Assembly (NCBI GenBank): GCA_026393985.1
Contig: JAPKZB010000078.1
Span: 62,001-126,000 of the forward strand
Origin: Acidobacteriota bacterium
GTDB lineage: Bacteria; Acidobacteriota; Terriglobia; Bryobacterales; Bryobacteraceae
Direction: 5' to 3'
Length of the DNA stretch: 64,000 nucleotides
A model generated the notes under the pieces. That model did no database searches. It worked only from the letters and a program-made list of their open reading frames with translations, and was not told the origin of the DNA. Positions 31,764-62,162 of this stretch are shown piece by piece. Each line of letters starts with the position of its first letter. Position 1 is the first letter of the stretch. A program made the position numbers and the translations under genes.

Positions 31764-32382
31764 GGCTCCCGGCACGGACCTCAAGATCGAGATCGCCATC
31801 CTCGATGACGATCTGGACTTTCGCAACTACATGGAGGATTTCCTCACCGACGAGGGCATCTACAACGTCCGGCTGTTTGCCCACCCGGACGACCTGTTTG
31901 CCGCCAACGAGCAGAACCTCGCCGACATCGTGCTACTCGACATGAAGATGGGCGACTTCCAGGGCGACCAGGTGCTCGAACACCTGCATACACGCTGGCC
32001 CGGGCTTTGCGTGATCGTTGTCACCGGCTACCCCTCGCTCGAAGATATGCGGCTGACCTTCAAGATGAACGTGTTCGACTACCTGTCGAAACCGTTCTCG
32101 CTGGCGCAGTTGCGGCAGACCCTCAAGAACGCTATTGAAACCTTCGGCCTCGGCAAGACGCCGCAGGACCGGTTACGGGAGCGGCTCGGGCACCGCATCA
32201 AAGTCCTGCGCGTGGAGCGGGACTGGTCGCTCAAGGACCTGGCCGCCACCACCAAGCTGAGCGTCTCGCAGATCAGCGCCATTGAACGCGGCACGCACCT
32301 GCCGAGCATGGAGAGCCTGCTGGCCATCTCGCGGGCCTTTGACAAGAAACCGTCCGAACTTCTGGAAGCGATCGACTTTTGA
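31753..32382 (+). CDS. Response regulator with REC and C-terminal XRE-type (Cro/C1) helix-turn-helix
   Basis: The 209-residue protein has a receiver domain at 10-128: acidic pair in AILDDDLDF, phospho-accepting Asp in IVLLDMKMG, Thr in VVTGYPS and Lys in YLSKPFS. The DNA-binding domain, at about 147-205, is an XRE helix-turn-helix (LGHRIKVLRVERDWSLKDL, LSVSQISAIERGTHLPS, LLAISRAFDKKPSELL). This differs from the OmpR, NarL, NtrC or LytTR outputs of most response regulators. It overlaps the kinase by 11 nt and the receptor start by 4 nt (TTGA), so all three are coupled. Targets may be its own unit and the divergent act-cox operon (inference). Confidence 0.94.
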   Translation: MPVEAPGTDLKIEIAILDDDLDFRNYMEDFLTDEGIYNVRLFAHPDDLFAANEQNLADIVLLDMKMGDFQGDQVLEHLHTRWPGLCVIVVTGYPSLEDMRLTFKMNVFDYLSKPFSLAQLRQTLKNAIETFGLGKTPQDRLRERLGHRIKVLRVERDWSLKDLAATTKLSVSQISAIERGTHLPSMESLLAISRAFDKKPSELLEAIDF

Positions 32383-34877
32383 AATATTTTCTTACGCTGT
32401 TTTTCCCCTGCGTTCTCTGGGCGCAGAAGCCCGAGGCGGGCGATGCGCAAAAGCGCGTTGAACTGAACCTGCTCGGCAAAGAGGACGCGGCCAAAGGCGA
32501 AAGCCGCCGCAACGAAAACATACAGTTCAACCTGGTGGACAACAACGCCCTGAAAGAGCTGAACGTCCGGCTGGGGGCAACGGCGACGCTCGTCGAGGAG
32601 TTCCGGGCCGATCGCGGCTACTTCGGCGCCGAGTTCGGCACCCCGGCCCCCGGGCCGATTGCGCTGGCGGCGCAGCGCCGGGCCGGCTGGCACGGCAATC
32701 TCTTCGCCAACCATCAGAACAGCGTCTTTTCCGCGCGCGCCTTTTTCCAGGTCGGCGATGTCAAGCCGGCGCGGGAGAACCGCTACGGCTTCCAGAGCGG
32801 CGGCAGCCCCTGGCGCGGTGGCTTCGTTTCGCTACAAGGCTCGCAGGAGAAGCTGCGCGGACAGGTGAACGGCAACGTGCTGGTACCCTATGCCGGCGAA
32901 CGCACGGCGCTGGCGACGGACCCGGCTGTGCGGGCGCTGGTGCAGCGCTACCTGGACGCTTTCGGCCCCGAGCTGCCCAATCGGGGCAATGGTACGCGGC
33001 AGTTGAACACCAACGCCCCCCAGCGCATCGACAGCAACGACGGCAGCCTCCGCCTCGAGCAGGACCTGACGGCGAAGGATCGCCTGTTTGCCCACTACCA
33101 GTACACGAGCCAAACCGTCGATGCGTTTCAACTGATCGCGGGGCAGAACCCGGACACGACCACGCGGTCCCACCGGGCGCGCCTGACGTGGAACCGGGGC
33201 GGGAGGCTGCTACTGACCTCGAGCTTCGACCGCATCGGCTCGCTGCTGGTGCCGGAGCCGAACGCCGTGGGCCCGATGATTTCGACCGCCGGGTTGACCA
33301 CGCTGGGGCCGCTCGGCGCTATCCCGATCGACCGCGCGCAGAACAGCTACCGGCAGGAGGCGCAGTACACCGCCACCTACGGACGGCATACCCTCAACCT
33401 GGGCGGCGGGCTTACCCGCCGGCAGTTCAACGGCCAGGAGACCGACTCGCACCGCGGCTACCTCTCGTTTTCAAACGACTTCGGCCGGACGGGGATTGAG
33501 AACATGCGGCTGGGCACGCCGTCGCAGTATCTGGTGGCGGTGGGCGATATCCACCGCGGGTTCCGGCAGACGCTGGGCGTGCTGTACGCGCAGGATTCCT
33601 GGAAGGTCAACACCAATCTCACGCTCCAGTTGGGTTTGCGCTGGGAGATGGTGGGCCGCCCCACCGAGGTCAACCGCCGCAATGAGATCCCCTACGACGC
33701 GGACTGGAACAACGTGGCGCCGCGCGCGGGCTTTGCCTGGCGGCTGCCGAAAGGCGCCGGGGTGCTGCGCGGGGCCGCCGGGGTTCATTTTGGTGAGATC
33801 CTGCCGGTCTCCTACTCGCAGATTCGCTTTTCCCCGCCCCTGAGCGTCAAGCTGGTGATCCTTGCTCCGAGCCTTCTCAATCCGCTGGCCGGCAGTGGCG
33901 TTGCGCCCAAAGGCAATCTGTATCTGATCGATCGCGAGCTGGCGACGCCTTATCACTACCAGTACAACTTCAGTTGGGAGCGGGCGCTCGGCGCGGGATG
34001 GCGGCTGCAGGCCGGCTACGCCGGGAGCCGCGCGCATAAGCTGCCGATCATGTGGTACACCAACCGCGCCCACCCCACGCCCGGCATTCCGCTCACCACG
34101 GCCACGATCAACGAACGGCGGCCCATCGCCAATCTGGCCGATGTCCGCCTCGTGCTGAACGGCTCGCGCGGCTACTTCGACGCCGGACGGCTCACCGTGG
34201 TCGCCCCGCGCGTCAAGCGCTTCACCGTCGATGCCGCCTACTGGTTCAGCAAGGCGCTCGACCTCGGCGCCGACTATACCAATACGGCCTACGACGCCGA
34301 CTCGCGCCTGTCCCGCAGCCAGAGCGAGTACGAAACGCACAGCGACCGGAAAGGCCGCAGCCAGTTCGACCAGCCCCACGCCTTCCTGGCCCGGGTCGGC
34401 TACGATCTGCCCCGGGGCTGGAACGTGAGCACGGTGGCGCTGCTCAAGCAGGGGACGCCCCTCAACCTGACCACCCTCGACGGACCCGGCTTCGGCAACG
34501 TCGACGGCAACGGCGGGGACCGGCCCAATCTGCTCGACCCCACGATTCTGGGCCGCAGCTACGGCAACCCCGATACGTCGGTGGCGCGCCTGCCGCGGAC
34601 GGCCTTCCGCTACATCGCGCCGGGCGCCGAGACGGGCAACCTGGGGGCGAACGTTTTCCGCAAAGGCGCGATTCGCAACGTGAACGCGGCCCTGGCCAAG
34701 ACGTGGCAACTGCCCCGCGACATGAAACTGCTCCTGCGGGCCGAATCAATCAATCTGCTCAACACGCCGCAGTTTGCCGAGCCGGGCAGCGTGCTGGGGA
34801 CACCGGAGTTTGGCTTCATCACCAACACGCTGAACGATGGCCGGACGTTTCGGTTCAACTTAGGGCTGCAGTGGTAG
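32379..34877 (+). CDS. TonB-dependent-receptor-like outer-membrane beta-barrel protein
   Basis: The 832-residue protein has a signal peptide (MKYFLTLFFPCVLWAQ), a short plug-like region (about 40-130; NALKELNVRLGATATLVEEFRADRGYFGAEFG) and a long barrel of alternating strands (RLRGQVNGNVL, HYQYTSQTV, HTLNLGGGLTRRQF, LQLGLRWEMVG, YQYNFSWERALG, FNLGLQW). It ends in an aromatic residue, as outer-membrane barrels do. It resembles the Oar-like receptors of Acidobacteria but lacks the usual N-terminal carboxypeptidase-regulatory domain and is shorter than typical. The start is TTG 32379, which overlaps the regulator stop (TTGA). No TonB box is obvious. The substrate is unknown. Confidence 0.85.
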   Translation: MKYFLTLFFPCVLWAQKPEAGDAQKRVELNLLGKEDAAKGESRRNENIQFNLVDNNALKELNVRLGATATLVEEFRADRGYFGAEFGTPAPGPIALAAQRRAGWHGNLFANHQNSVFSARAFFQVGDVKPARENRYGFQSGGSPWRGGFVSLQGSQEKLRGQVNGNVLVPYAGERTALATDPAVRALVQRYLDAFGPELPNRGNGTRQLNTNAPQRIDSNDGSLRLEQDLTAKDRLFAHYQYTSQTVDAFQLIAGQNPDTTTRSHRARLTWNRGGRLLLTSSFDRIGSLLVPEPNAVGPMISTAGLTTLGPLGAIPIDRAQNSYRQEAQYTATYGRHTLNLGGGLTRRQFNGQETDSHRGYLSFSNDFGRTGIENMRLGTPSQYLVAVGDIHRGFRQTLGVLYAQDSWKVNTNLTLQLGLRWEMVGRPTEVNRRNEIPYDADWNNVAPRAGFAWRLPKGAGVLRGAAGVHFGEILPVSYSQIRFSPPLSVKLVILAPSLLNPLAGSGVAPKGNLYLIDRELATPYHYQYNFSWERALGAGWRLQAGYAGSRAHKLPIMWYTNRAHPTPGIPLTTATINERRPIANLADVRLVLNGSRGYFDAGRLTVVAPRVKRFTVDAAYWFSKALDLGADYTNTAYDADSRLSRSQSEYETHSDRKGRSQFDQPHAFLARVGYDLPRGWNVSTVALLKQGTPLNLTTLDGPGFGNVDGNGGDRPNLLDPTILGRSYGNPDTSVARLPRTAFRYIAPGAETGNLGANVFRKGAIRNVNAALAKTWQLPRDMKLLLRAESINLLNTPQFAEPGSVLGTPEFGFITNTLNDGRTFRFNLGLQW

Positions 34878-37535
34878 CAGGCCGATCTCGCGCAGCCAGC
34901 CAAAGCTGTCCGTGAGAGCCCGGTCGATCTCGGCGGGCGTGGCCGTGTAGCCGGGGACGACGAAGGCGTGCTGGGAGCCGGGATAGAGAATCACCTTCGA
35001 CCGCCGGTGTGCCCGCGCGAAGCGCTCGGACTCGGTGAAGGGCACGACGGTATCGTTGCGGCCGTGCAGGAGCAGGGCGGGCGGCGTCCGAGCGTCGATG
35101 GCGAACAGCGGGGACAGGCGCCGGGCTTCGGCCGGCGAGGCTGTGCGGTCCACCCACTTGCCGGTGAGATCGGGGACGGGATTAAAGGCCACGATGGCGT
35201 TAGCACGCTCCCGGGTGACGGTGCCGAGGGCGAGCGCGAGGTGCCCTCCAGCGCTGTCTCCGGCGGCGACGACGCGCTGTGGGTCCACGCCCAACTCGAC
35301 GGCGTTCTTGCGGATCCAGACGAGGGCGGCTTCCACGTCTGCAACGGCCGGGGCCACCGAGCCCAGGCGGTACTGCACCGTGAAGCCGATCGCCCCCTGC
35401 GCGGCGCTGTACTCGGCCGCGGGCAGGAACATCTCCGGACGGCCGCCAGTCCAGCCGCCGCCGTGGATCCAGAGCACGGCGGGCCGCGGGAGCGCGCCGC
35501 GGCGGCCGACCATCGTCAGCTTCAGGCCGGGCTTGTACTCAAAAGTCTGCGCCTTCTGCATCTCCCAGGGGTCGGCGGCGAGGCCGTTCTGATCCCAGAC
35601 CACGCGCCCGGCGCGGAGGGTGAGTTCGCATTGCAATAACTGCGTGCCGCTGATTTTCGAGCCGCCGACATCGAGGAAGCCGTACTGTCCTTTATCGAGC
35701 CGGAGCAGGGCGACATCGGCTTCGGCGCCGGGCGTCAGGTGACCAAGCGCGGGGCGCCGGATCGCCTGCGCCGGGGCCCAGGTGGAGGCGCGGATCACGT
35801 CCACGAGCGGCATGTTCATGTTGAGAAATTTCGACATGGTGGCGAGCATGTTCTTCATGCCGCCGTTGGCGCTGCCGACGTGGAGGTCGGTCGAGATCGT
35901 GTCGGGCGCGAAGCCCTGGCGCATGGCGGGGACGGCCCATTGAAACAGCAGCGAGCCCGAGCCGTGACCCACGTCAAAGAGAATGCCGCGTTCGCGCGCC
36001 GCGCGGTAGTGCGGCCGCAGCTTGCCGTCTTGATCGAGCACGGGATCAAAGGGCCGGTACATATGCGTGTAGATATCGCCGGGGCGGAGCTTGTCGAGAA
36101 AGAGATCGCGGTGCGGCCGTTCGATGTGGATGACGCCGAAGTCAACCATCACAGGCAGCTTGGCGAGGCCGGCCGCCTGCACGGCGCGGTCGACGGCAAA
36201 CCAGTCCGGCGCCATCCAGTGGGCGGTCTTGATGCCGACAATCAGATCCGGGTTAGCGGCGGCCATGCGGGCGGCCTCTTCCGGATCGAAGTCGGCCGGG
36301 TCCTGCTCGTTGCGGCCGCCCATGCCGCCGGCGACGATGTTGAGAAAGGCCAGGACGCGGGTGGCGGCGGAGCGGATCAGCCGGTCGCGGAAATCCGGGA
36401 AGTTGCGCCAGCCGGAGCTGCCGGCATCGACCAGGGTGGTGACGCCGGCGCGGAAGCTGTGCATGTCGGCGGGGACGGATTGATCGCCGCCGGCCAGCAC
36501 CTGCCCGTTGGGGCCGGTATAGACGTGGGCGTGCATGTCGATGAGGCCGGGGACGACGTAGAGGCCGCGGGCTTCGACCACCCGTTTGGCTTGGGCGCGC
36601 GGGATATCGGCGGCGACAGCGGCGATTCGGCCGTTGTGGATGGCGACGTCGCGGACGGCGTTGAGCTGGTTTTTGGGATCGATGACGGTGCCGCCTTTGA
36701 GCAGCAGGTCATAAGCGGGTTCGGCGCCGGTGTCGAAGACGGCCAGCACGGGGAGATGGTCGCTCGGGTAGCGGCCGACGTTGTTACGGGTAATGGCGTC
36801 GACGCGTTTGACCTTCCACTGGGGAGCGCGGAAGAGAATCCAATCGATACGGTTGGGGCCGACGGTTCCTTTGAATCCGTGGAAGGTGCCTTCGGGGCCG
36901 CTGGTGGCGGCGGCGGCGGACTTGGCATCGGTGAGGGTGGCGGTGAGAATGCGGTAGGCCTCGCTGCCGGGGGCGGTGTTGAAATCGCCGGTGAGGACGA
37001 AGGGCGAGGCCAGGCCGAGGCGGGAGGCGATGAGTTTGGCCGAGGCGACGCGGGCCGCTTCATCGAGCTGGCCGCGGTGGGCGAAGTGGGTGTTGAAGTA
37101 AGTGAACTTTTGGCGAGTGGCGAGGTCGGTGAAGATGGCCCAGGTGACCATGCGCGGCAGCGACATGTTCCAGGAGCTTGAGCCGGGGACCTCCGGCGTC
37201 GCGGAGAGCCAGAAGTTGCCGGAGTCTTCAAGGCGCAGCCGGGAGGTTTTGTAGAACACGCCCATGTGTTCGTCCTCTTTGTTGCCGCGGCGGCTGAGGC
37301 CGAACCAAGCGTATTCGGGGAGCTTTTCAACGATGTACTGGCCCTGCGCGTAGAACAGCTCCTGCGTGCCCATCACATCGGGGGCGGCCTCGCGGATGGT
37401 GTCGACGAGAAGGTCGCGCCGGTTTTCCCAGACATCGGGACCGTCGCCCGGATTGGGGTAGCGCACGTTGAACGTCATCACGCGCAACTCGGCGGCGAGC
37501 AGCGGCAGGGCGGCGAACAGGAGCAGGAGACGCAT
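34860..37535 (-). CDS. Secreted three-enzyme fusion: EEP-family phosphoesterase, amidohydrolase, alpha/beta hydrolase
   Basis: One uninterrupted 891-residue frame has an N-terminal signal (to about 15) and three enzyme domains. Residues 16-270 are an endonuclease/exonuclease/phosphatase fold with Asn23, Glu59, Asp184-x-Asn186 and Asp259-His260. Residues 272-660 are an amidohydrolase of the dihydroorotase/deacetylase-like type with His335-x-His337, Lys436 (likely carboxylated), His491, His524 and Asp550. Residues 662-891 are an alpha/beta hydrolase with HGGGW (691), GDSAGG (Ser761), Asp828 and His856. All catalytic residues look intact. The domains are normally separate proteins, and I know of no described protein with this order. 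It ends the GntR-linked minus-strand run and overlaps the convergent receptor gene by 18 nt. Confidence 0.9.
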   Translation of the reverse strand: MRLLLLFAALPLLAAELRVMTFNVRYPNPGDGPDVWENRRDLLVDTIREAAPDVMGTQELFYAQGQYIVEKLPEYAWFGLSRRGNKEDEHMGVFYKTSRLRLEDSGNFWLSATPEVPGSSSWNMSLPRMVTWAIFTDLATRQKFTYFNTHFAHRGQLDEAARVASAKLIASRLGLASPFVLTGDFNTAPGSEAYRILTATLTDAKSAAAATSGPEGTFHGFKGTVGPNRIDWILFRAPQWKVKRVDAITRNNVGRYPSDHLPVLAVFDTGAEPAYDLLLKGGTVIDPKNQLNAVRDVAIHNGRIAAVAADIPRAQAKRVVEARGLYVVPGLIDMHAHVYTGPNGQVLAGGDQSVPADMHSFRAGVTTLVDAGSSGWRNFPDFRDRLIRSAATRVLAFLNIVAGGMGGRNEQDPADFDPEEAARMAAANPDLIVGIKTAHWMAPDWFAVDRAVQAAGLAKLPVMVDFGVIHIERPHRDLFLDKLRPGDIYTHMYRPFDPVLDQDGKLRPHYRAARERGILFDVGHGSGSLLFQWAVPAMRQGFAPDTISTDLHVGSANGGMKNMLATMSKFLNMNMPLVDVIRASTWAPAQAIRRPALGHLTPGAEADVALLRLDKGQYGFLDVGGSKISGTQLLQCELTLRAGRVVWDQNGLAADPWEMQKAQTFEYKPGLKLTMVGRRGALPRPAVLWIHGGGWTGGRPEMFLPAAEYSAAQGAIGFTVQYRLGSVAPAVADVEAALVWIRKNAVELGVDPQRVVAAGDSAGGHLALALGTVTRERANAIVAFNPVPDLTGKWVDRTASPAEARRLSPLFAIDARTPPALLLHGRNDTVVPFTESERFARAHRRSKVILYPGSQHAFVVPGYTATPAEIDRALTDSFGWLREIGLLPLQP

Positions 37536-37547
37536 AAGAGGAAAGAT

Positions 37548-38249
37548 CTATTCGCGGCCGGGGAGCGGGAGCACGGCGCCGGTGATCTCGGCGCCGGCGT
37601 CACTGGCGAGCCAGACGAGCAGGCTGGCGACGTTGGCGGGCTGCACCCAGCGGGTGGAGTCGTAGTCGGGCATGGCGGTGCGGTTGGCGTGAGTGTCCAT
37701 GGTGCCGGGGGCGACGATGTTGGCGCGAATGCGGGCGTCGCGGTTTTCGACGGCGATGGTTTGGATAAGCGAGATGAGAGCGGCTTTAGCGGCGGCGTAG
37801 GCGCCCAGGGTGGGCACGGCGTTGATGGCGGCCGGGCTGCCGATGGCGAGAAAGGCGCCGCGTTTGGCGGCGCGCATGCCGGGCAGCACGGCGCGGGCCA
37901 GATGGATGGCCGGGCGGAGATTGACGGCGAACATCTTGTCCCAGGTCTCGTCGCTCGTCTGTTCCAGGCGCAACCCGCCGGCAAAGCCGCCGACCAGATG
38001 CACGACGGCGTCGATGCGGCCGTGCAGGAGCATCGTATCTTTGACGAGCTCTTCGACTGCGGCGAAATCTTCGAGGGCGACGGCGACGTGGGTCAGGGCC
38101 GGGTGTTCCGGGCTCTTCGAGCGGGGCACGCGATCCACCCCAACCACGCGGGCGCCAGCTTCGAGAAACGCCTTGGTGACGGGGATGCCCAGGCCGCCGC
38201 TGGCGCCGGTGATGATGACGACCTTACCGTCGAGGTTAAGAGAGAGCAT
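37548..38249 (-). CDS. Short-chain dehydrogenase/reductase
   Basis: This 233-residue classical SDR has the cofactor loop TGASGGLG near residue 14 and the catalytic Tyr-x3-Lys in YAAAKAAL with a Ser in GSPAAIN before it. C-terminal NIVAPGTMDT is also typical. It probably uses NAD(P)H to oxidise or reduce a carbonyl; the substrate is not predictable. It sits 13 nt after the sulfatase and 12 nt before the triple-domain fusion, in the same minus-strand run. The Cys-free N-terminus and lack of a signal peptide place it in the cytosol. Confidence 0.93.
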   Translation of the reverse strand: MLSLNLDGKVVIITGASGGLGIPVTKAFLEAGARVVGVDRVPRSKSPEHPALTHVAVALEDFAAVEELVKDTMLLHGRIDAVVHLVGGFAGGLRLEQTSDETWDKMFAVNLRPAIHLARAVLPGMRAAKRGAFLAIGSPAAINAVPTLGAYAAAKAALISLIQTIAVENRDARIRANIVAPGTMDTHANRTAMPDYDSTRWVQPANVASLLVWLASDAGAEITGAVLPLPGRE

Positions 38250-38262
38250 AGGGTTCGAACTC

Positions 38263-39918
38263 CTAGGTTACCTGCTTGATCTCGACGTACTGCACGCCGA
38301 GCTCTTCCCCGTTGATCCGGAGCACGGGTTCGAGGCGCCCCGGACCCACCGGCAGACGCAGGCCGGAGAAGCGGACGGTGCGGGCGCCGGCGGCAAACGC
38401 GGCGGACTGCTCGAGGCTGCCGAGTTTGAAGACCGCCGTGCCGGCCGCGGCGGCGGGAGCAAAGAGCAGGTCGACATCGTAGGAGGCCGCGCGAAGCACT
38501 TCCACCTCCCAATAGCCGATGCCCTTGGCCTCCCAACTGGCGCGCGGCCCGCGCCAATCCTGGCGCGTGAGCAGCGTCGGGTTCTCGCCGGGATAGCCGA
38601 TGGCGAGACGGGGCGGGGCGTAGCCGCCGCGCGAGGCCGCTACGCTGCGGAACCACGCTTCGGTCTCGCCCCGCAGGCGGGCCACCACGTCGGGATGCCG
38701 GGCGGCGACGTTGTTGGCTTCAGCCGGGTCGGCGTCCATATCGTAGAGTTCGACGCCGTTGACGAGCTTCCAGCGCTGCGTGCGCACGGCGTGGGAGCGG
38801 AACAGTTCCGGCGTGTCGCCGCGGTGCCACTGCGTGTGAATGCTGCGGTCCTTCCAGCCGGCGGACTTGCCTTCGAGCAGGGGCAGCAGGCTGCGGCCAT
38901 CGAGCGGCACTTTGGGCAGCGGGACGCCTGCGGCGGCGATCAGGGTGGGCAGCAGGTCGAGGTGCGAGGCGATGCGATCGATCGTGAGGCCGGGCTTGAC
39001 GCGGGCGGGCCACTGCAGGAAGCAGGGTACGCGGATGCCGCCCTGATAGACGGTGGTCTTCAGGCCACGCATGCCACCGTTGAAGCGGGGCTGCTGCGGG
39101 CCGTTATCGCTGAGAAAGACGACGATGGTGTTGTCCCGCAGTTGGAGCCGCGTCAGTTGTTCCTGCAGCTTTCCCACGTTCTCGTCGACGTTCTGGAGCA
39201 TGCCGTAGATCTTGGCCGTGACGTCATCGAGGCCCTTGGCTTTGTAGGGCTGGCTGTACTTCTCTTCGATCTGCAGCGGGGTGTGCGGGGCGTTGGTCGG
39301 GAGGTAGATGAAGAATGGCTTCGTTTTGTTCTTTTCGATGAACTGCATCGTCTCCCGGAAGAAGATGTCGGTGCAGTAGCCTTGGGCCTTCTCGTACTTG
39401 CCGTTCCGGCGGAGGACGGGATTGAAGTAGGACTGGCCGGGCGGCGGGTCGCCGGGTTGGGCGAGGCCACCGCCGTTGATGACGAGCGCTTCATCGAAGC
39501 CCTGGTCGCCGGGGCGGAGGGGGTAATTGTCGCCGAGGTGCCATTTGCCGAAGATCGCGGTGCGGTAGCCGGCGGCGCGGAGCGTCTCGGCGATGGTGAC
39601 CTCTTTCGTGTCCATGAGGGCGCGGCCGAGGTAGGTGTCAACGACGCCCGTGCGGTAGTTGTAGCGGCCGGTCAGCAGGCCGGCGCGCGTGGGGGCGCAG
39701 ACGGGGCAGACCTGAAACTGGGTGAACTGCGCGCCTTGGTTGGCGAGGGAGTCCATGTGGGGCGTGGCGAGGTCGCGGTTGCCATGCAGCGAAAGATCGC
39801 CGTAGCCCTGGTCGTCGGTGATGATGACGATGATGTTGGGCCGGGCGCGGGGGGCGGCCGTGGCCGCGGCGGCAGGGGCGACGGAGGCAGCGGCGAGGAA
39901 TTGACGGCGGTTCAGCAT
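38263..39918 (-). CDS. Tat-exported sulfatase (formylglycine type)
   Basis: The 551-residue protein has a Tat-like leader (MLNRRQFLAAASVAPA) and the sulfatase core: NIIVIITDDQGYGD with the metal-binding Asp pair, and the formylglycine motif CAPTRAGLLTGR (C-x-P-x-R), whose Cys must be modified by a formylglycine-generating enzyme. GKWHLGD and the second metal site FLSDNGPQQ follow. A C-terminal beta-rich domain, about 420-551, looks like a sugar- or ligand-binding addition. It likely removes sulfate from a sulfated glycan or small molecule. It is 15 nt downstream of the DUF6454-like gene in the six-gene minus-strand run. Confidence 0.94.
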   Translation of the reverse strand: MLNRRQFLAAASVAPAAAATAAPRARPNIIVIITDDQGYGDLSLHGNRDLATPHMDSLANQGAQFTQFQVCPVCAPTRAGLLTGRYNYRTGVVDTYLGRALMDTKEVTIAETLRAAGYRTAIFGKWHLGDNYPLRPGDQGFDEALVINGGGLAQPGDPPPGQSYFNPVLRRNGKYEKAQGYCTDIFFRETMQFIEKNKTKPFFIYLPTNAPHTPLQIEEKYSQPYKAKGLDDVTAKIYGMLQNVDENVGKLQEQLTRLQLRDNTIVVFLSDNGPQQPRFNGGMRGLKTTVYQGGIRVPCFLQWPARVKPGLTIDRIASHLDLLPTLIAAAGVPLPKVPLDGRSLLPLLEGKSAGWKDRSIHTQWHRGDTPELFRSHAVRTQRWKLVNGVELYDMDADPAEANNVAARHPDVVARLRGETEAWFRSVAASRGGYAPPRLAIGYPGENPTLLTRQDWRGPRASWEAKGIGYWEVEVLRAASYDVDLLFAPAAAAGTAVFKLGSLEQSAAFAAGARTVRFSGLRLPVGPGRLEPVLRINGEELGVQYVEIKQVT

Positions 39919-39933
39919 TGCCCCGCCAGCATA

Positions 39934-40638
39934 TCAAGGCAGGCGGTAGCGGAACAGTCGGCTGGGATCGTCCTCGGGGAGAAGATAGAGAACGCCGTCG
40001 CGGAGGGCCATGCCCTCGTTCGAGAAGCGGACGCCACGGTCGGTAAGGCCCGTGGTGATGAACTTTTCGACGGCCAGGGTTTCCGGGTCGAGCCACTCGA
40101 TGGCCCCGGCCGTGCGGCTCTTGACGCCGTTGCCGACGAGGCGGCCGCCGGTGGCTTTGAGATCCTGGAAGCCGGTGCCGGTGGGGTTGGGCCGCTGGTC
40201 GAGTAGCGTCCCGTCGGGGCGCCAGCGGTAGAGCAGGCGCGCGTCCCAGTTGCCGCCCCAGAGCACGCCGTCGGCGATGGCCACGCAGCCGATGTGATCC
40301 GGCACGGCGAACTGGGCTTCGAGCGCGAGGGTCATTTTGTTGCGCTTCTGCACCCGGGCGCTCGACTCCCGGCGGTACTCGGCTACCGGCACCCACAGGG
40401 AGCCGCCGGCCAGCTGCAGGCCGCCGGGGTGGTAACGTTCGCCGTCCTGCACTTCGACCGTGGCGAGGCGCTCGCCGGTCTTCCAGTTGTACCGGGAGAG
40501 GTAGCCTTTGCGGGTCGCCTTCTCGACGGCCGAGACCCAGAGGAAGTCGCCTTCGACGTCGATGCCCTGGACGTGGTGGGTAGGACCAGTCAAGTGGGTG
40601 ACACCGAGCAGGGTCAGCGATGCGAGTTCAGCGAGCAT
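39934..40638 (-). CDS. DUF6454-like beta-propeller protein
   Basis: The 234-residue protein has repeated short blade-like units (GDFLWVSAVEK, GGSLWVPVAEY, DGVLWGGNWDARLLYRW, GGRLVGNGV, DGVLYLLPEDDP), as in SMP-30/YncE-like propellers. The opening LTGPTHHVQGIDVEG matches what I know of the DUF6454 family. A short hydrophobic N-terminus may or may not be a signal. ATG 40638 shares a base with the antiporter stop (TAATG). Function is unknown; it may bind or process the sulfatase or TIM-barrel substrate. Confidence 0.75.
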   Translation of the reverse strand: MLAELASLTLLGVTHLTGPTHHVQGIDVEGDFLWVSAVEKATRKGYLSRYNWKTGERLATVEVQDGERYHPGGLQLAGGSLWVPVAEYRRESSARVQKRNKMTLALEAQFAVPDHIGCVAIADGVLWGGNWDARLLYRWRPDGTLLDQRPNPTGTGFQDLKATGGRLVGNGVKSRTAGAIEWLDPETLAVEKFITTGLTDRGVRFSNEGMALRDGVLYLLPEDDPSRLFRYRLP

Positions 40639-41834
40639 TACTCAATTCTAATCGGCGACTCGTCGGGATCCTCGGGCATTTGCGCGAGCGACCGGAACGT
40701 GACCGCGAGCAGGACCGGGGCGACGACGGTGGTCATGACGGCCATCACGACGACGACGCCATACGTCGCCTTGCTGACGATACCCATCGCGGCGCCCAAC
40801 TGCGCCACCACCATGCCCACCTCGCCCCGCGGCACCATGCCGGCGCCGATGCGCCGCGCATCGGGCCAGCCCAGCGAGAGCGCGCCGAGGCCGCAGCCGA
40901 GGAGCTTGGACACAATCGCGGCCACCGTGATGACGGCGGCCAGGGTCAGCGTGCGGGGATCCCGGAGCACGTTCACGTCGAGCGCCAGGCCGATGCCGGC
41001 GAGGAAAAACGGCACAAGCAACTCGGTAACCCCCTGCGCCAGATCCTGCACGCGATGGGAGACCGTTTCGGCGAGCGCGACTCCCGCCAGAAAGGCCCCG
41101 ATAATTGCGGCCACCCCGGCATAGCTCGCAAAGACGGCCAGCGCGAACAGCAGAATCATCGCCAGCGAAAACTGCGATTCGCCGCCGCGCAGCCGCCGGT
41201 CGATACCGGGTAGCACCCGGCCAACGGTCCGGCTACCGAAACTCAGCACGAAAAGAGTAAAGCCGATGGAGAGGCCGGCGGTGGTGGTGAGTTGCAGGAC
41301 ATCGAAACTGCCCCGCGCCATGCTCGAGACAACGGCCAGGACGATGAGTCCGAGAATGTCATCGATTACGGCGGCCGCCAGAATGATGCGGCTGGCCCGC
41401 ACGTTGAGCAGGCCCTTGGCGGCCAGCACCTGCGCGGTGATGCCCACGGACGTGGCGACCATCGCGGCGCCGACAAACAGCGCTTCAATCTGATTGGACC
41501 CGTAGTAGACATAGATCGCGTAGCCCATGGCAAAGGGCAGCAGCACCCCGAGCAGCGCCACGATGGAAGCCACGCGGCCCACTTTAAACAGGTCCGAGGC
41601 CTTCACCTCAAGACCCACGCGGAAGAGCAGAAACATCACCCCGAGGTCAGAAAACTGCGTGATCTGGCTCGGCTCCACCCAGTTCAGGACGCTTGCGCCG
41701 AGCAGCACCCCGGCCAGAATCTGGCCGACGATGCCGGGCAGGCCGCAACGCTCGCAGATCTCGCCCAGAATTTTCGCCGTGCCGAAGACGAGGAGCATCG
41801 CCAGCGGCAGTTGGGAGCCGGCGTGCTCACTCAT
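40638..41834 (-). CDS. Cation:proton antiporter (CPA2/KefB-like)
   Basis: The 398-residue membrane protein has about 12 helices: GIVGQILAGVLLG, LGVMFLLFRVGLEV, ILAAAVIDDILGLIVLAVV (with the conserved acidic pair of the CPA ion path) and IGAFLAGVALAETV. It lacks the cytosolic TrkA-N domain of KefB/KefC, so it resembles the minimal Na+ or K+/H+ exchangers. An upstream open frame to 41915 is not homologous. ATG 41834 overlaps the TIM-barrel gene stop as ATGA. It may adjust ion or pH balance when the neighbouring pathway runs, but that is inference. Confidence 0.93.
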   Translation of the reverse strand: MSEHAGSQLPLAMLLVFGTAKILGEICERCGLPGIVGQILAGVLLGASVLNWVEPSQITQFSDLGVMFLLFRVGLEVKASDLFKVGRVASIVALLGVLLPFAMGYAIYVYYGSNQIEALFVGAAMVATSVGITAQVLAAKGLLNVRASRIILAAAVIDDILGLIVLAVVSSMARGSFDVLQLTTTAGLSIGFTLFVLSFGSRTVGRVLPGIDRRLRGGESQFSLAMILLFALAVFASYAGVAAIIGAFLAGVALAETVSHRVQDLAQGVTELLVPFFLAGIGLALDVNVLRDPRTLTLAAVITVAAIVSKLLGCGLGALSLGWPDARRIGAGMVPRGEVGMVVAQLGAAMGIVSKATYGVVVVMAVMTTVVAPVLLAVTFRSLAQMPEDPDESPIRIE

Positions 41835-42721
41835 CGAGCACGCATCCAGGCGACAAAGGCCCGGGCATAGCGGTCCAGATTCTCTTCCGAGCCGCCGCCG
41901 AGCAGCGGCGAACACATCTCATAAGCCACGCCCCCAGTGTATCCGGCCTGGACGGCGGCGCCGAAAAACGCCCGGTAGTCGATGAAGCCTTCGCCAAACG
42001 GCACGGCCTGCACATACGGGGTGGCCGGGACGTAGTTGACGAGCGCCGGTTCGTAGCGATGGCGGGGGCGGCGGACGTAGTCGGCCACGGTGGTGTGGGC
42101 CATCCAGGGCGCCAGCGAGGCGGCCGCGGCGGCGAGGTCATCACCATGCAGCGCCGGGGCCCAGGCGTCGAAACCGGCCTTCATGTGGGGATCGTTCACC
42201 TCGCTGAGCAGATCGCGAAAGCTCTCCCAACCGGCGGCGACATCGTGGTGGTTCTGCAGCAGGAGGGTGACGCCGCAACGTCCCGCCCGGCGGGCGCATT
42301 CACCGAGGGCATCGACAATCATGCGCCACTGCGCGGAGAAGGGGGCCGCCGGGTGTTCGTACCCCGTGAAGATCCGGACGTAGGGAGCGCCCAGATCGGC
42401 GCCGAGTTGCGCGAGCGCTTCGACGTAGTGAATCTGCATCTCCCGCTGCGGGACTTCGGCGTGTTCGAGGTCGGCCGTGAAGTTGGTGTAGCCGGCCAGG
42501 ACGTTGTGCCGCAGCCCGGCGGCGGCGAGATGGTCGCGGAGTTGGCGGCGGCGGGCAGCGTCGAAATCAAGCGGACTCAGGTGGGGCCGCTTGGCCATGA
42601 GCATGACTCCATCGAAATCCAAACTGGCCGCTTTGCCGGCAAACTGCTCGACGGAAAGGGCGGCCTGCCCCCAGGAACCGGAATAGCTGACCGAGTGAAG
42701 AAGAAGGGGCAGAGTCGACAT
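41831..42721 (-). CDS. Sugar-phosphate isomerase/epimerase-like TIM-barrel protein
   Basis: This 296-residue xylose-isomerase-like barrel (AP endonuclease 2 superfamily) shows FDGVMLMAKRPHL, NVLAGYTNFTADLEH, VRIFTGYEH, VTLLLQNHHDVAAGW, KAGFDAWAPALHGDD and GGVAYEMCSPL, with metal-ligand Glu/His/Asp candidates. Members interconvert keto sugars, inosose or hydroxypyruvate-like compounds. It is the first gene of a minus-strand run to 34860 and is divergent from the GntR regulator by 36 bp. The specific reaction is not determined. Confidence 0.88.
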   Translation of the reverse strand: MSTLPLLLHSVSYSGSWGQAALSVEQFAGKAASLDFDGVMLMAKRPHLSPLDFDAARRRQLRDHLAAAGLRHNVLAGYTNFTADLEHAEVPQREMQIHYVEALAQLGADLGAPYVRIFTGYEHPAAPFSAQWRMIVDALGECARRAGRCGVTLLLQNHHDVAAGWESFRDLLSEVNDPHMKAGFDAWAPALHGDDLAAAAASLAPWMAHTTVADYVRRPRHRYEPALVNYVPATPYVQAVPFGEGFIDYRAFFGAAVQAGYTGGVAYEMCSPLLGGGSEENLDRYARAFVAWMRAR

Positions 42722-42733
42722 GATGCGTAATTA

Positions 42734-42748
42734 GCTATACTCTATAGC
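42734..42748. promoter_or_regulatory. Perfect 15-bp palindrome, probable GntR operator
   Basis: GCTATA-CTC-TATAGC is a perfect 6-3-6 dyad in the 36-bp space between the divergent TIM-barrel gene and the GntR gene. It includes TATACT (42736-42741), a near-consensus -10 for the GntR gene, with TCGACA (42715-42720) as a 15-bp-spaced -35. Binding here would block both directions, the common autoregulated layout of GntR/UTRA repressors. Confidence 0.65.
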
Positions 42749-42757
42749 ACTTTCCTC

Positions 42758-43390
42758 ATGGCGGCCGCATATCTTCGAATTCACCAGGCGATCTCCGAGC
42801 AGATCCGCGCGGGCAAGCTCCAACCTGGTGATAAACTTCCGTCCGAACGCGACCTGGCCGCCAGGTTCGGCGTCAGCCTGATGACGGCTCGCCATGCGGT
42901 TTCGATGCTGCAGCAGGAAGGCTGCGTGATCCGGCGGGTGGGGTCCGGGACGTTCGTCGCGCCGGCTACCTCCGGCGGGCAGCGGCTGCGGGATCCGCAT
43001 GAGCTGTGCAGCAGCCGGCTGGTGGGGCGATTGGCGGCCGTGCAGCTTTTGGCCGAAGGGGCGCTGCTGCCGCAACCGATGGACGGGCAGGCTTGTGGCG
43101 TGGTTAGCCGGGTCTGGACGTCCGGAGCGGTACGGGTGATCGAGGAGCAGATTTGGATTCCCGCCGGTAACGAAAAGGATCTGCGCAAGCTGGGCGCCAC
43201 GCCGCTACTGGCTTGGCTGACCGTAGACGGCCTGTTTGCCCGGGAGACGATTGAGGCGGTAGTCGTGCACGGGTCCTCGATGCTGCGCATCACCCACACC
43301 CTCTACGACGGGAGCCAGCGGGCGGTGGCGCACCGGGTGGCGTTGTGTTTGGGCGACCGGATACGGGTGCAGCGGATCATTCAGCGCTAA
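42758..43390 (+). CDS. GntR-family transcriptional regulator, HutC/UTRA type
   Basis: The 210-residue protein has an N-terminal winged helix (8-70: YLRIHQAISEQIRAGKL, LPSERDLAARFGVSLMTARHAV, VGSGTFV) and a shortened C-terminal effector domain of the UTRA (chorismate-lyase-like) fold at about 80-205 (TIEAVVVHGSSMLRI, AHRVALCLGDRIRV). It likely represses the divergent metabolic run and itself until it binds an intermediate. The ATG is 9 nt beyond the palindrome. It is 35-40 residues shorter than typical HutC proteins, the loss being in the effector domain. Confidence 0.92.
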   Translation: MAAAYLRIHQAISEQIRAGKLQPGDKLPSERDLAARFGVSLMTARHAVSMLQQEGCVIRRVGSGTFVAPATSGGQRLRDPHELCSSRLVGRLAAVQLLAEGALLPQPMDGQACGVVSRVWTSGAVRVIEEQIWIPAGNEKDLRKLGATPLLAWLTVDGLFARETIEAVVVHGSSMLRITHTLYDGSQRAVAHRVALCLGDRIRVQRIIQR

Positions 43391-43462
43391 GGTTTTTGTG
43401 CAGACCTTGGGGACTGAGACTTTGCGGCTCAGATTTTGCCTTGTGGAGCCGATACGGATCCT

Positions 43463-44368
43463 ATGGATGAGAATCCCCCGAAGGAACGCCGGCGCCGGCC
43501 CCGCTTGCCCGCCCGGGCGTCGATGCAAGTCCAGCTTTGGCTGCAACTGCCCAATGGGAAGTGGCAGAAGCTGTCGGCGGCGGTGGAGAACTTTTCGCAG
43601 AGCGGCCTCGGGGTTCTGGTGCACGCGGAGCTGGAGACCGGACAGACCGTGCTCGTCGAGGGAGCGCCAGCCAGCGTGGCCTCCGGGCCGGGCCGTCCGC
43701 ACGGGATCGTCAGTTGGGTCAATCCGGCGGGAAATGCGTTTCGGGCCGGCATCTCGTTTGAATTGAGTTCGCCGGGAGGTCCCTCGATCGGGAACCCTTA
43801 CGCCGTGAACTCCTCCGACGAAGAGCTGGACTACTACGAGTTCCTGCAGATTCACCCGAAAGCGGAGCCGGATACCATCCACCGGGTCTACGGGATTCTG
43901 GCCAAACGCTTTCATCCGGAGAACCAGGACACGGGGAGCGAACAGCTTTTCAAGGCCCTGGTGACCGCCTACCGGGTGCTCGGCGACCCGGTGCGCCGGG
44001 CCGCGTACGACGTCGAACGGGGGCGGGCGCAGAAGCGGCAATGGCGGGTTTTCAGCCCGGAATCGGCTTCCGGCGGGGTGGAGGCCGAACGCGAACAGCG
44101 GCAGGCCGTGCTGGCCATGCTCTACGTCAAGCGGATGCGGGAGACCCACAACCCCGGGGTTCACATTCAGGAATTTGAGGAAATCCTGGGCATTCCCCGT
44201 GAGCATCTGGAGTTTACCCTCTGGTATCTGCGGAAGCAGGGTTTTGTAGTCCGCACCCACCATGGCCGGTATGCCATCACTGTCAAAGGGGTTGACCGGG
44301 CCGAGGAGTGGGGCGCAACGCCCCGACCGGCTGCGTCGTACCTGACACCGGAGCTCTGCTTTCGGTAG
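43463..44368 (+). CDS. PilZ - J-domain - winged-helix fusion protein
   Basis: The 301-residue cytosolic protein has an N-terminal PilZ-like domain at 8-103: an Arg cluster RRRRPR (9-14) and NFSQSG (43-48), matching the c-di-GMP-binding RxxxR and (D/N)xSxxG signatures. A J domain follows at about 123-183 (YYEFLQIHP, LAKRFHPENQD, VTAYRVLGDPVRRAAYD), in which the DnaK-activating HPD is HPE. A C-terminal winged-helix-like region runs about 205-275 (VHIQEFEEILGI, LEFTLWYLRKQGFV). It could link c-di-GMP to DnaK or to transcription. A TTG at 43436 is in frame; ATG 43463 is preferred. Its end overlaps the convergent gene by 86 nt. Confidence 0.85.
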   Translation: MDENPPKERRRRPRLPARASMQVQLWLQLPNGKWQKLSAAVENFSQSGLGVLVHAELETGQTVLVEGAPASVASGPGRPHGIVSWVNPAGNAFRAGISFELSSPGGPSIGNPYAVNSSDEELDYYEFLQIHPKAEPDTIHRVYGILAKRFHPENQDTGSEQLFKALVTAYRVLGDPVRRAAYDVERGRAQKRQWRVFSPESASGGVEAEREQRQAVLAMLYVKRMRETHNPGVHIQEFEEILGIPREHLEFTLWYLRKQGFVVRTHHGRYAITVKGVDRAEEWGATPRPAASYLTPELCFR

Positions 44369-61826: not shown

Positions 61827-62162
61827 ATGAAAACCCTTCTGATCGGTCTTGTCTTCGGCCTCGCCCTCAGCGCCCAACCCTACGCGGGCCGCGGCGGGTC
61901 CGGCTTCGATCACGGCTACGGCCCGGCGGCCGCGGCTGACAACTTCGCTGCCCGTATCGCGTTTGGCGAACGCACCGGCCGCCTGACGCCGCGTGAAGCA
62001 CGCCGCTTGTGGGAGATGGAGCGCCATCTGCAGCGCGAAATCGGCCGGGCCTCCCGCTTCGGCTTCTCCCGCGGCGAACGCGAACGGATCGCCCGGCTGT
62101 CGGCACAACTCGATGCCGCCATCGCCCGGCAGATGCGCGACGGCGACCGCCGCTGGCGCTAA
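61827..62162 (+). CDS. Small secreted alpha-helical protein of unknown function
   Basis: The 111-residue protein has a signal peptide (MKTLLIGLVFGLALSAQ), a Gly-rich stretch, then a charged helical region: NFAARIAFGERTGRLTPREARRLWEMERHLQREIGRA and later GERERIARLSAQLDAAIARQM, given here only in part. The Arg/Glu-rich helices resemble CpxP/Spy-like or other periplasmic small proteins, but I do not assign a family. GAGGT lies 10 nt before ATG 61827. It is followed 34 bp later by the ceramidase-like gene. The 132-bp gap before it (61695-61826) holds no clear element. Confidence 0.8.
   Translation: MKTLLIGLVFGLALSAQPYAGRGGSGFDHGYGPAAAADNFAARIAFGERTGRLTPREARRLWEMERHLQREIGRASRFGFSRGERERIARLSAQLDAAIARQMRDGDRRWR

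Follow-up and report, generated by a model that had tools for sequence, protein, structure and literature searches.

The question raised by this locus is whether three enzymes of families that normally occur as separate proteins have truly become one exported protein in a bacterium of the Bryobacteraceae (Acidobacteriota), and if so, what such a protein would be for. In the window, by which we mean the whole stretch of 64,000 nucleotides that was analysed (positions 62,001 to 126,000 of contig JAPKZB010000078.1, assembly GCA_026393985.1), a preliminary description made from the letters alone had pointed to a single frame of 891 residues that joins an EEP (endonuclease/exonuclease/phosphatase) domain, an amidohydrolase and an alpha/beta hydrolase. 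The gene lies at 34860..37535 on the minus strand, as do all its parts given below, and consists of one uninterrupted frame of 891 codons and a stop; strand, length and continuity are as had been described, and all 13 catalytic residues that had been named sit at their positions. The three families match non-overlapping stretches of the one protein, each above its curated cut-off, with profiles of Pfam and NCBIfam. Residues 1-16 (37488..37535, MRLLLLFAALPLLAAE) have, judged by eye, the look of a Sec-type signal sequence, which agrees with the one signal peptide suggested earlier, and the ATG of the fusion is the only one that would keep this signal, since the next methionine, M20, falls inside the EEP domain. 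Export at least as far as the periplasm is probable.

The EEP domain, residues 17-267 (36735..37487), matches Exo_endo_phos (PF03372) over residues 20-260 with 63.1 bits against a gathering cut-off of 24.5. What we take to be the catalytic and metal residues of the EEP site, N23, E59, H150, D184, N186, D231 and H260, are invariant in all 19 EEP rows of alignment A2; three of them (H150, N186 and D231) complete the site and come in addition to the 13 of the preliminary description. Phosphodiester cleavage had been proposed for this domain. Its membership of the EEP family stands, but phosphodiesterase activity is unproven: among solved relatives whose activity has been named, the closest is a mannosyl-6-phosphatase. 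As this enzyme, Bt3783, is the only close structure with a stated activity, a sugar phosphatase is our best guess for the EEP domain.

The middle domain, residues 274-655 (35571..36716), is a binuclear amidohydrolase of the COG3964 type, and over residues 274-651 it scores 411 bits with the amidohydrolase/deacetylase model NF006689, for which the equivalog cut-off is 371 bits. We take this model to be the same as COG3964, with which a reference title that names an Agrobacterium tumefaciens enzyme cog3964 agrees. H335, H337, K436, H491, H524 and D550 are common to 7/7 fused and 11/11 stand-alone amidohydrolase rows, and are presumably the HxH, the carboxylated lysine, the two histidines and the aspartate of the binuclear site. 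Dihydroorotases need a conserved arginine after the HxH for substrate binding, and 2OGJ, which carries a tryptophan at that position, is excluded from the true dihydroorotases, according to PMC12524618. The arginine is absent here, with Y339 in all seven fused proteins and a tyrosine or phenylalanine in the 11 stand-alone rows, and because of this replacement and the score as NF006689 the amide or cyclic-amide chemistry that had been put forward is unsupported. The 2ogj enzyme (Atu3266) is said, in work by Ornelas from 2013, to hydrolyse acetyl-(R)-mandelate and similar esters, and for that reason "deacylase" seems a better label for the domain than "cyclic amidase". Stand-alone amidohydrolases with signal-like starts, again by eye, are encoded elsewhere in the same genome. 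Two tandem paralogs of the middle domain are found at G000:C76:14296-16532 (L005), with a match to the formylglycine-generating-enzyme family about 1 kb further on, and in an Acetobacteraceae MAG (L074:6001-8144) a COG3964-type amidohydrolase frame is followed after 2 bp by an alpha/beta hydrolase frame, a similar pair that is unfused.

The C-terminal part, from about residue 662 to 891 (34863..35552), is a compact alpha/beta hydrolase similar to BD-FAE and to Thermogutta Est2, the best stretch of the BD-FAE match being residues 683-775 (91.6 against a cut-off of 26.8 bits). The GDSAG motif and the triad S761, D828 and H856 are present in 7/7 fused proteins. A profile search with this domain gave Thermogutta Est2 first and then a rumen lipase, acetyl xylan and carbohydrate esterases and a GH43-CE bifunctional protein, and the same search also brought many general esterases; the resemblance suggests a domain of the carbohydrate-esterase kind. 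Among 101 relatives, the nearest esterase outside the fused locus (L119, 45% identity) is joined to an SGNH hydrolase; there, in a genome of the same family (G058), a frame of 565 residues at L119:793-2490 holds the esterase relative together with a GDSL/SGNH hydrolase.

Between the three domains are two joints, residues 268-273 (36717..36734) and residues 656-661 (35553..35570), and the junctions that had been placed at about 36720 and 35560 coincide with these borders. Related stand-alone amidohydrolases end at about the second joint or extend beyond it by a tail of at most about 32 residues. A full-length AlphaFold2 model (mean pLDDT 75.8, pTM 0.55) was good for the EEP and amidohydrolase domains and failed for the esterase third, with pLDDT below 50 for residues 767-891, probably because just the seven fused rows covered that part; the esterase domain modelled alone reached a pLDDT of 95.6 and a pTM of 0.93. 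With the full model, Foldseek found the COG3964-type structures 8je0, 8wzy, 2ics and 2ogj first, and 3mpr, 3g6s and 4c1r within the top 17. How the three active sites face each other is not readable from this model, given the pTM and the badly modelled third domain, and the channelling of one substrate through them that had been suggested is conjecture.

A search for the same order of domains, which had been proposed as a check, found full-length orthologs of the fusion in seven of the 19 genomes of the genus, at 82-97% identity and in a frame of 890 or 891 codons. Six further loci, L045-L050, were taken as the other six fused genomes by their matching identities and counted once; they are titled as MAGs of Acidobacteria, Acidobacteriales, Acidobacteriaceae, Bryobacteraceae or Candidatus Sulfopaludibacter. 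All 16 catalytic positions are identical in the seven orthologs. In seven of the 21 pairs (Nei-Gojobori), dN/dS was 0.06-0.14 for the EEP domain, 0.06-0.17 for the amidohydrolase and 0.065-0.11 for the esterase, and 0.09-0.26 for the second linker (residues 650-682), which is less conserved than the domains; the ratios of distant pairs are rough, since dS is close to or above 1 in several cases. Purifying selection acts on each of the three domains, and constraint is relaxed in none. One could still suppose a chimera of assembly or a recent accident without function, as all are drafts and six of the seven carry MAG in the title, and one relative (G012) holds a decayed copy. That seven assemblies share the joints at such identities, with invariant active sites and purifying selection, makes this so improbable that it can be set aside, and the low chance given earlier to a join that keeps the frame is borne out; the same uninterrupted frame in seven of 19 genomes in practice excludes an artefact. 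The families are otherwise separate, as had been claimed: seven other genomes of the genus have an EEP that ends at the joint, stand-alone amidohydrolases occur in the same genome, and in 18/18 stretches from relatives that surround an EEP gene, no relative of this amidohydrolase or esterase is fused to the EEP. It is a true, selectively maintained and lineage-restricted triple fusion of known families.

Within our searches, the architecture is seen in one bacterial genus alone. No full-length match beyond the same seven was found in 237 genomes of the family and 257 of the order (overlapping sets, E <= 1e-152, best three candidates per genome scored), where the other five matching genomes have the amidohydrolase alone. 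In a sample of 396 genomes of the phylum (E <= 1e-140) the fusion is in its own genome only, the other six fused genomes being evidently outside the sample. Among the matches listed, best first, at least seven of 101 relatives have it, and exact patterns of eight residues, which catch close relatives only, found six loci besides the window across genome contigs. By our estimate a fusion of less than about 40% identity could escape these searches. We found no description of the three-domain fusion in the literature, as judged from search entries rather than full texts.

The origin of the fusion can be followed from the genomes of the same genus that do not have it. Seven of these (G003, G004, G005, G007, G014, G015 and G018) have a stand-alone EEP of 65-70% identity, which in all seven stops within a few residues of the first joint. 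In the EEP tree (30 rows) the fused proteins form one clade (100/99) beside these seven (99/98), and in the amidohydrolase tree (43 rows) they again form one (100/100), beside stand-alone enzymes of another genus (L023 and L142; 99/96). The latter tree came with a long-branch warning for the distant rows L004-L006, L062 and L074; the depth of the L006 split is unsure, and the fused group and its sisters are unaffected, since the notice sets L006 against the whole of the large side, to which the fused group belongs. An EEP phosphatase that already existed would thus have gained at its end, once and in frame, a COG3964-type amidohydrolase and a compact esterase. The ancestral EEP may already have stood near a sulfatase and a dehydrogenase: in four of the seven stretches, genes related to the sulfatase and the short-chain dehydrogenase (SDR) of our locus share a contig with the stand-alone EEP and precede it by 0.2-4.7 kb, and in G007 the order is sulfatase, SDR and EEP, with the EEP about 0.2 kb after the related pair. 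Of the other three stretches, L101 is cut upstream by the contig end and L102 on both sides, and L099 shows neither gene. We also considered a remnant of the esterase downstream of the amidohydrolase genes of genus g13, where alignments cross the stop in L023 and L142, and found it to be chance extension. Downstream of the g13 amidohydrolases there is a sulfatase in L160 and no relative of the window proteins in L159; at L160:2686-5412 (G593), the sulfatase-like gene follows, on the same strand, a stand-alone amidohydrolase that is one of the two closest.

The fusion has also been lost. In G012 a relic lies between the SDR and the TonB genes at L164:11122-11574 (also L120). It corresponds to residues 648-827 and contains two stops; the EEP and most of the amidohydrolase are gone, and the rest of the gene run is kept. 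In the sulfatase tree, G012 and the fused genome G006 stand together (99/98). At E <= 1e-10, G002 (83% complete) and G008 (62% complete) gave no EEP, and G011 and G013 of the same genus have distant EEPs only. With single fused clades in the trees and a relic in the syntenic place, one gain and at least one loss is the history that we read from these data, and the fusion arose once within the genus. The gene is dispensable, as G012 has lost most of it and yet keeps the rest of the run.

The fusion is the last of six genes on the minus strand with gaps of -4, -1, 15, 13 and 12 bp: a xylose-isomerase-like TIM barrel (41831..42721), a sodium/hydrogen exchanger (40638..41834), a DUF6454 protein (39934..40638), a sulfatase (38263..39918), the SDR (37548..38249) and, 12 bp downstream, the fusion. 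The sulfatase has the C-x-P-x-R motif for formylglycine, CAPTR at residue 74, and a Tat-like leader by eye. The formylglycine-generating-enzyme family (FGE-sulfatase), which is broad, has 15 matches in the same genome (best 3.9e-82), and these may include a true FGE. A GntR regulator (42758..43390, plus strand) is divergent from the run and a TonB-dependent outer-membrane beta-barrel protein (32379..34877, plus strand) is convergent with it, and its 3' end overlaps that of the fusion by 18 bp (34860-34877). The order from GntR to TonB recurs at all six other fused loci, with two deviations: GntR is cut by the stretch end in L049, and L048 has one extra gene before the TonB gene. This gene, class I methyltransferase-like by eye, stands between fusion or relic and TonB gene in G006 (L048:8325-9362) and G012 (L164:11717-12412); in the fused loci other than that of G006, fusion and TonB gene adjoin without it.

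The six genes are presumably co-transcribed. No Rfam model matched in 34000-43500, and a scan for promoters and terminators stayed at chance level. The 12 bases before the fusion ATG (37536-37547) are rich in pyrimidines and have no evident Shine-Dalgarno or ribosome-binding motif, as is the case in the orthologs, and translation of the fusion may depend on the SDR gene just upstream. Readthrough from the SDR to the fusion was considered and dropped: in the window, the stop of the SDR and the fusion are in one frame, but the distance between the two genes varies, being 12 bases in five of the seven orthologs and 11 in two. In the 18 stretches around EEP genes of relatives there is no relative of the amidohydrolase or esterase beyond one weak match (L166), of 63 residues, to an amidohydrolase about 4 kb away from the EEP. 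A relative of the TonB receptor is present in 5/18 and of the sulfatase in 4/18, and in 11 of these stretches, listed by eye, the neighbours are of various kinds, a part of them carbohydrate-related. Genomes of this sort have many sulfatases and TonB receptors, and for this reason the nearness of both is weak evidence.

What the protein does can at present be proposed from its relatives. We put even weight on a maintained hydrolase with three sites that, together with the sulfatase, would act outside the cytoplasm to clear a carbohydrate-type substrate of its decorations. The EEP site would remove phosphate from the decorated carbohydrate, the binuclear metal site would hydrolyse an N- or O-acyl bond and the esterase site would take off an acyl group, while the sulfatase, presumably co-transcribed and Tat-exported, would work alongside, and the products would pass to the dehydrogenase and isomerase-like enzymes of the same run in the cytoplasm. 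That the EEP is sugar-phosphatase-like and the third domain carbohydrate-esterase-like suggests a glycan, or a glycan derivative, that loses phosphate and acyl groups. The three activities, the shared substrate and its carbohydrate nature are what we infer from these likenesses, and guesses of the substrate rest on relatives of 27-35% identity. A common substrate for the three sites is plausible; the strongest form of the idea, in which phosphate, O-acyl and N- or alpha-O-acyl groups of one glycan or derivative are all taken off by one exported chain that with the sulfatase makes up a complete "de-decoration" module, is rather doubtful.

Against joint action speaks that outside the fusion the three families are not found together, as seen in the 18 EEP stretches with their one weak match, and also that G012 does without the gene. 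It could thus be that all domains are active and share no substrate, and that three exported hydrolases are simply carried on one chain, with one signal peptide and in one unit of expression, to scavenge phosphate and acyl esters broadly. The second linker, less conserved as for beads on a string, and the widespread type to which the compact esterase belongs would fit this, but of the eight genomes of the clade only G012 has lost the fusion, which in the other seven is intact and always the last gene of the same run, and we hold this explanation for tentative, though still a real contender. Improbable, in our opinion, is that the EEP is an exported nuclease or phosphodiesterase and that the protein salvages phosphorus or nucleic-acid derivatives. 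The EEP superfamily includes nucleases, and TDP2 and nocturnin are among the fold matches. Their identity is 16-21%, however, whereas that of the Bacteroides group to which the sugar phosphatase belongs is 32-34%, and an amidohydrolase and an esterase would be odd partners.

Gene fusions are natural hypotheses on shared pathways. This one ties a little-studied group of EEP phosphatases, the misannotated COG3964 amidohydrolases and a carbohydrate-esterase-like domain to a sulfatase gene run, and identifying one substrate would open a way into all three families. It is also a traceable case of a triple fusion that was gained once and is decaying again in one lineage.

Each third of the protein has its counterpart among known systems. 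The EEP structures 4c1r (Bt3783), 3mpr and 3g6s are 32-34% identical to the fusion EEP over 267-273 columns, and 3l1w is a further structure of the group of the Bt3783 mannosyl-6-phosphatase (PDB 4c1r); the catalytic residues are the same, whereas the fusion EEP is Acidobacterial and the N-terminal third of a larger protein. TDP2 and nocturnin share the fold at the lower identity given above. The COG3964 amidohydrolases 2ogj, 2ics, 8je0 and 8wzy have 27-32% identity to the middle domain and the same six metal-site and catalytic residues, and differ from it in that the domain of the fusion is fused and probably exported. For the third domain, Thermogutta terrifontis Est2 (PDB 5ao9/7bfn) is 33-35% identical with a Foldseek TM of 0.86-0.90 by query length, and 6xyc and 6tkx, acetyl xylan and other carbohydrate esterases, are structural relatives; the Ser-Asp-His triad is shared with the BD-FAE and Abhydrolase_3 esterases, while the esterase of the fusion is fused and has a very short N-terminus. 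The nearest parallels in architecture are the GH43-CE protein (6mly) and the SGNH-fused L119, in which an esterase of the same type is joined to another hydrolase, but with other partners, neither an EEP nor an amidohydrolase.
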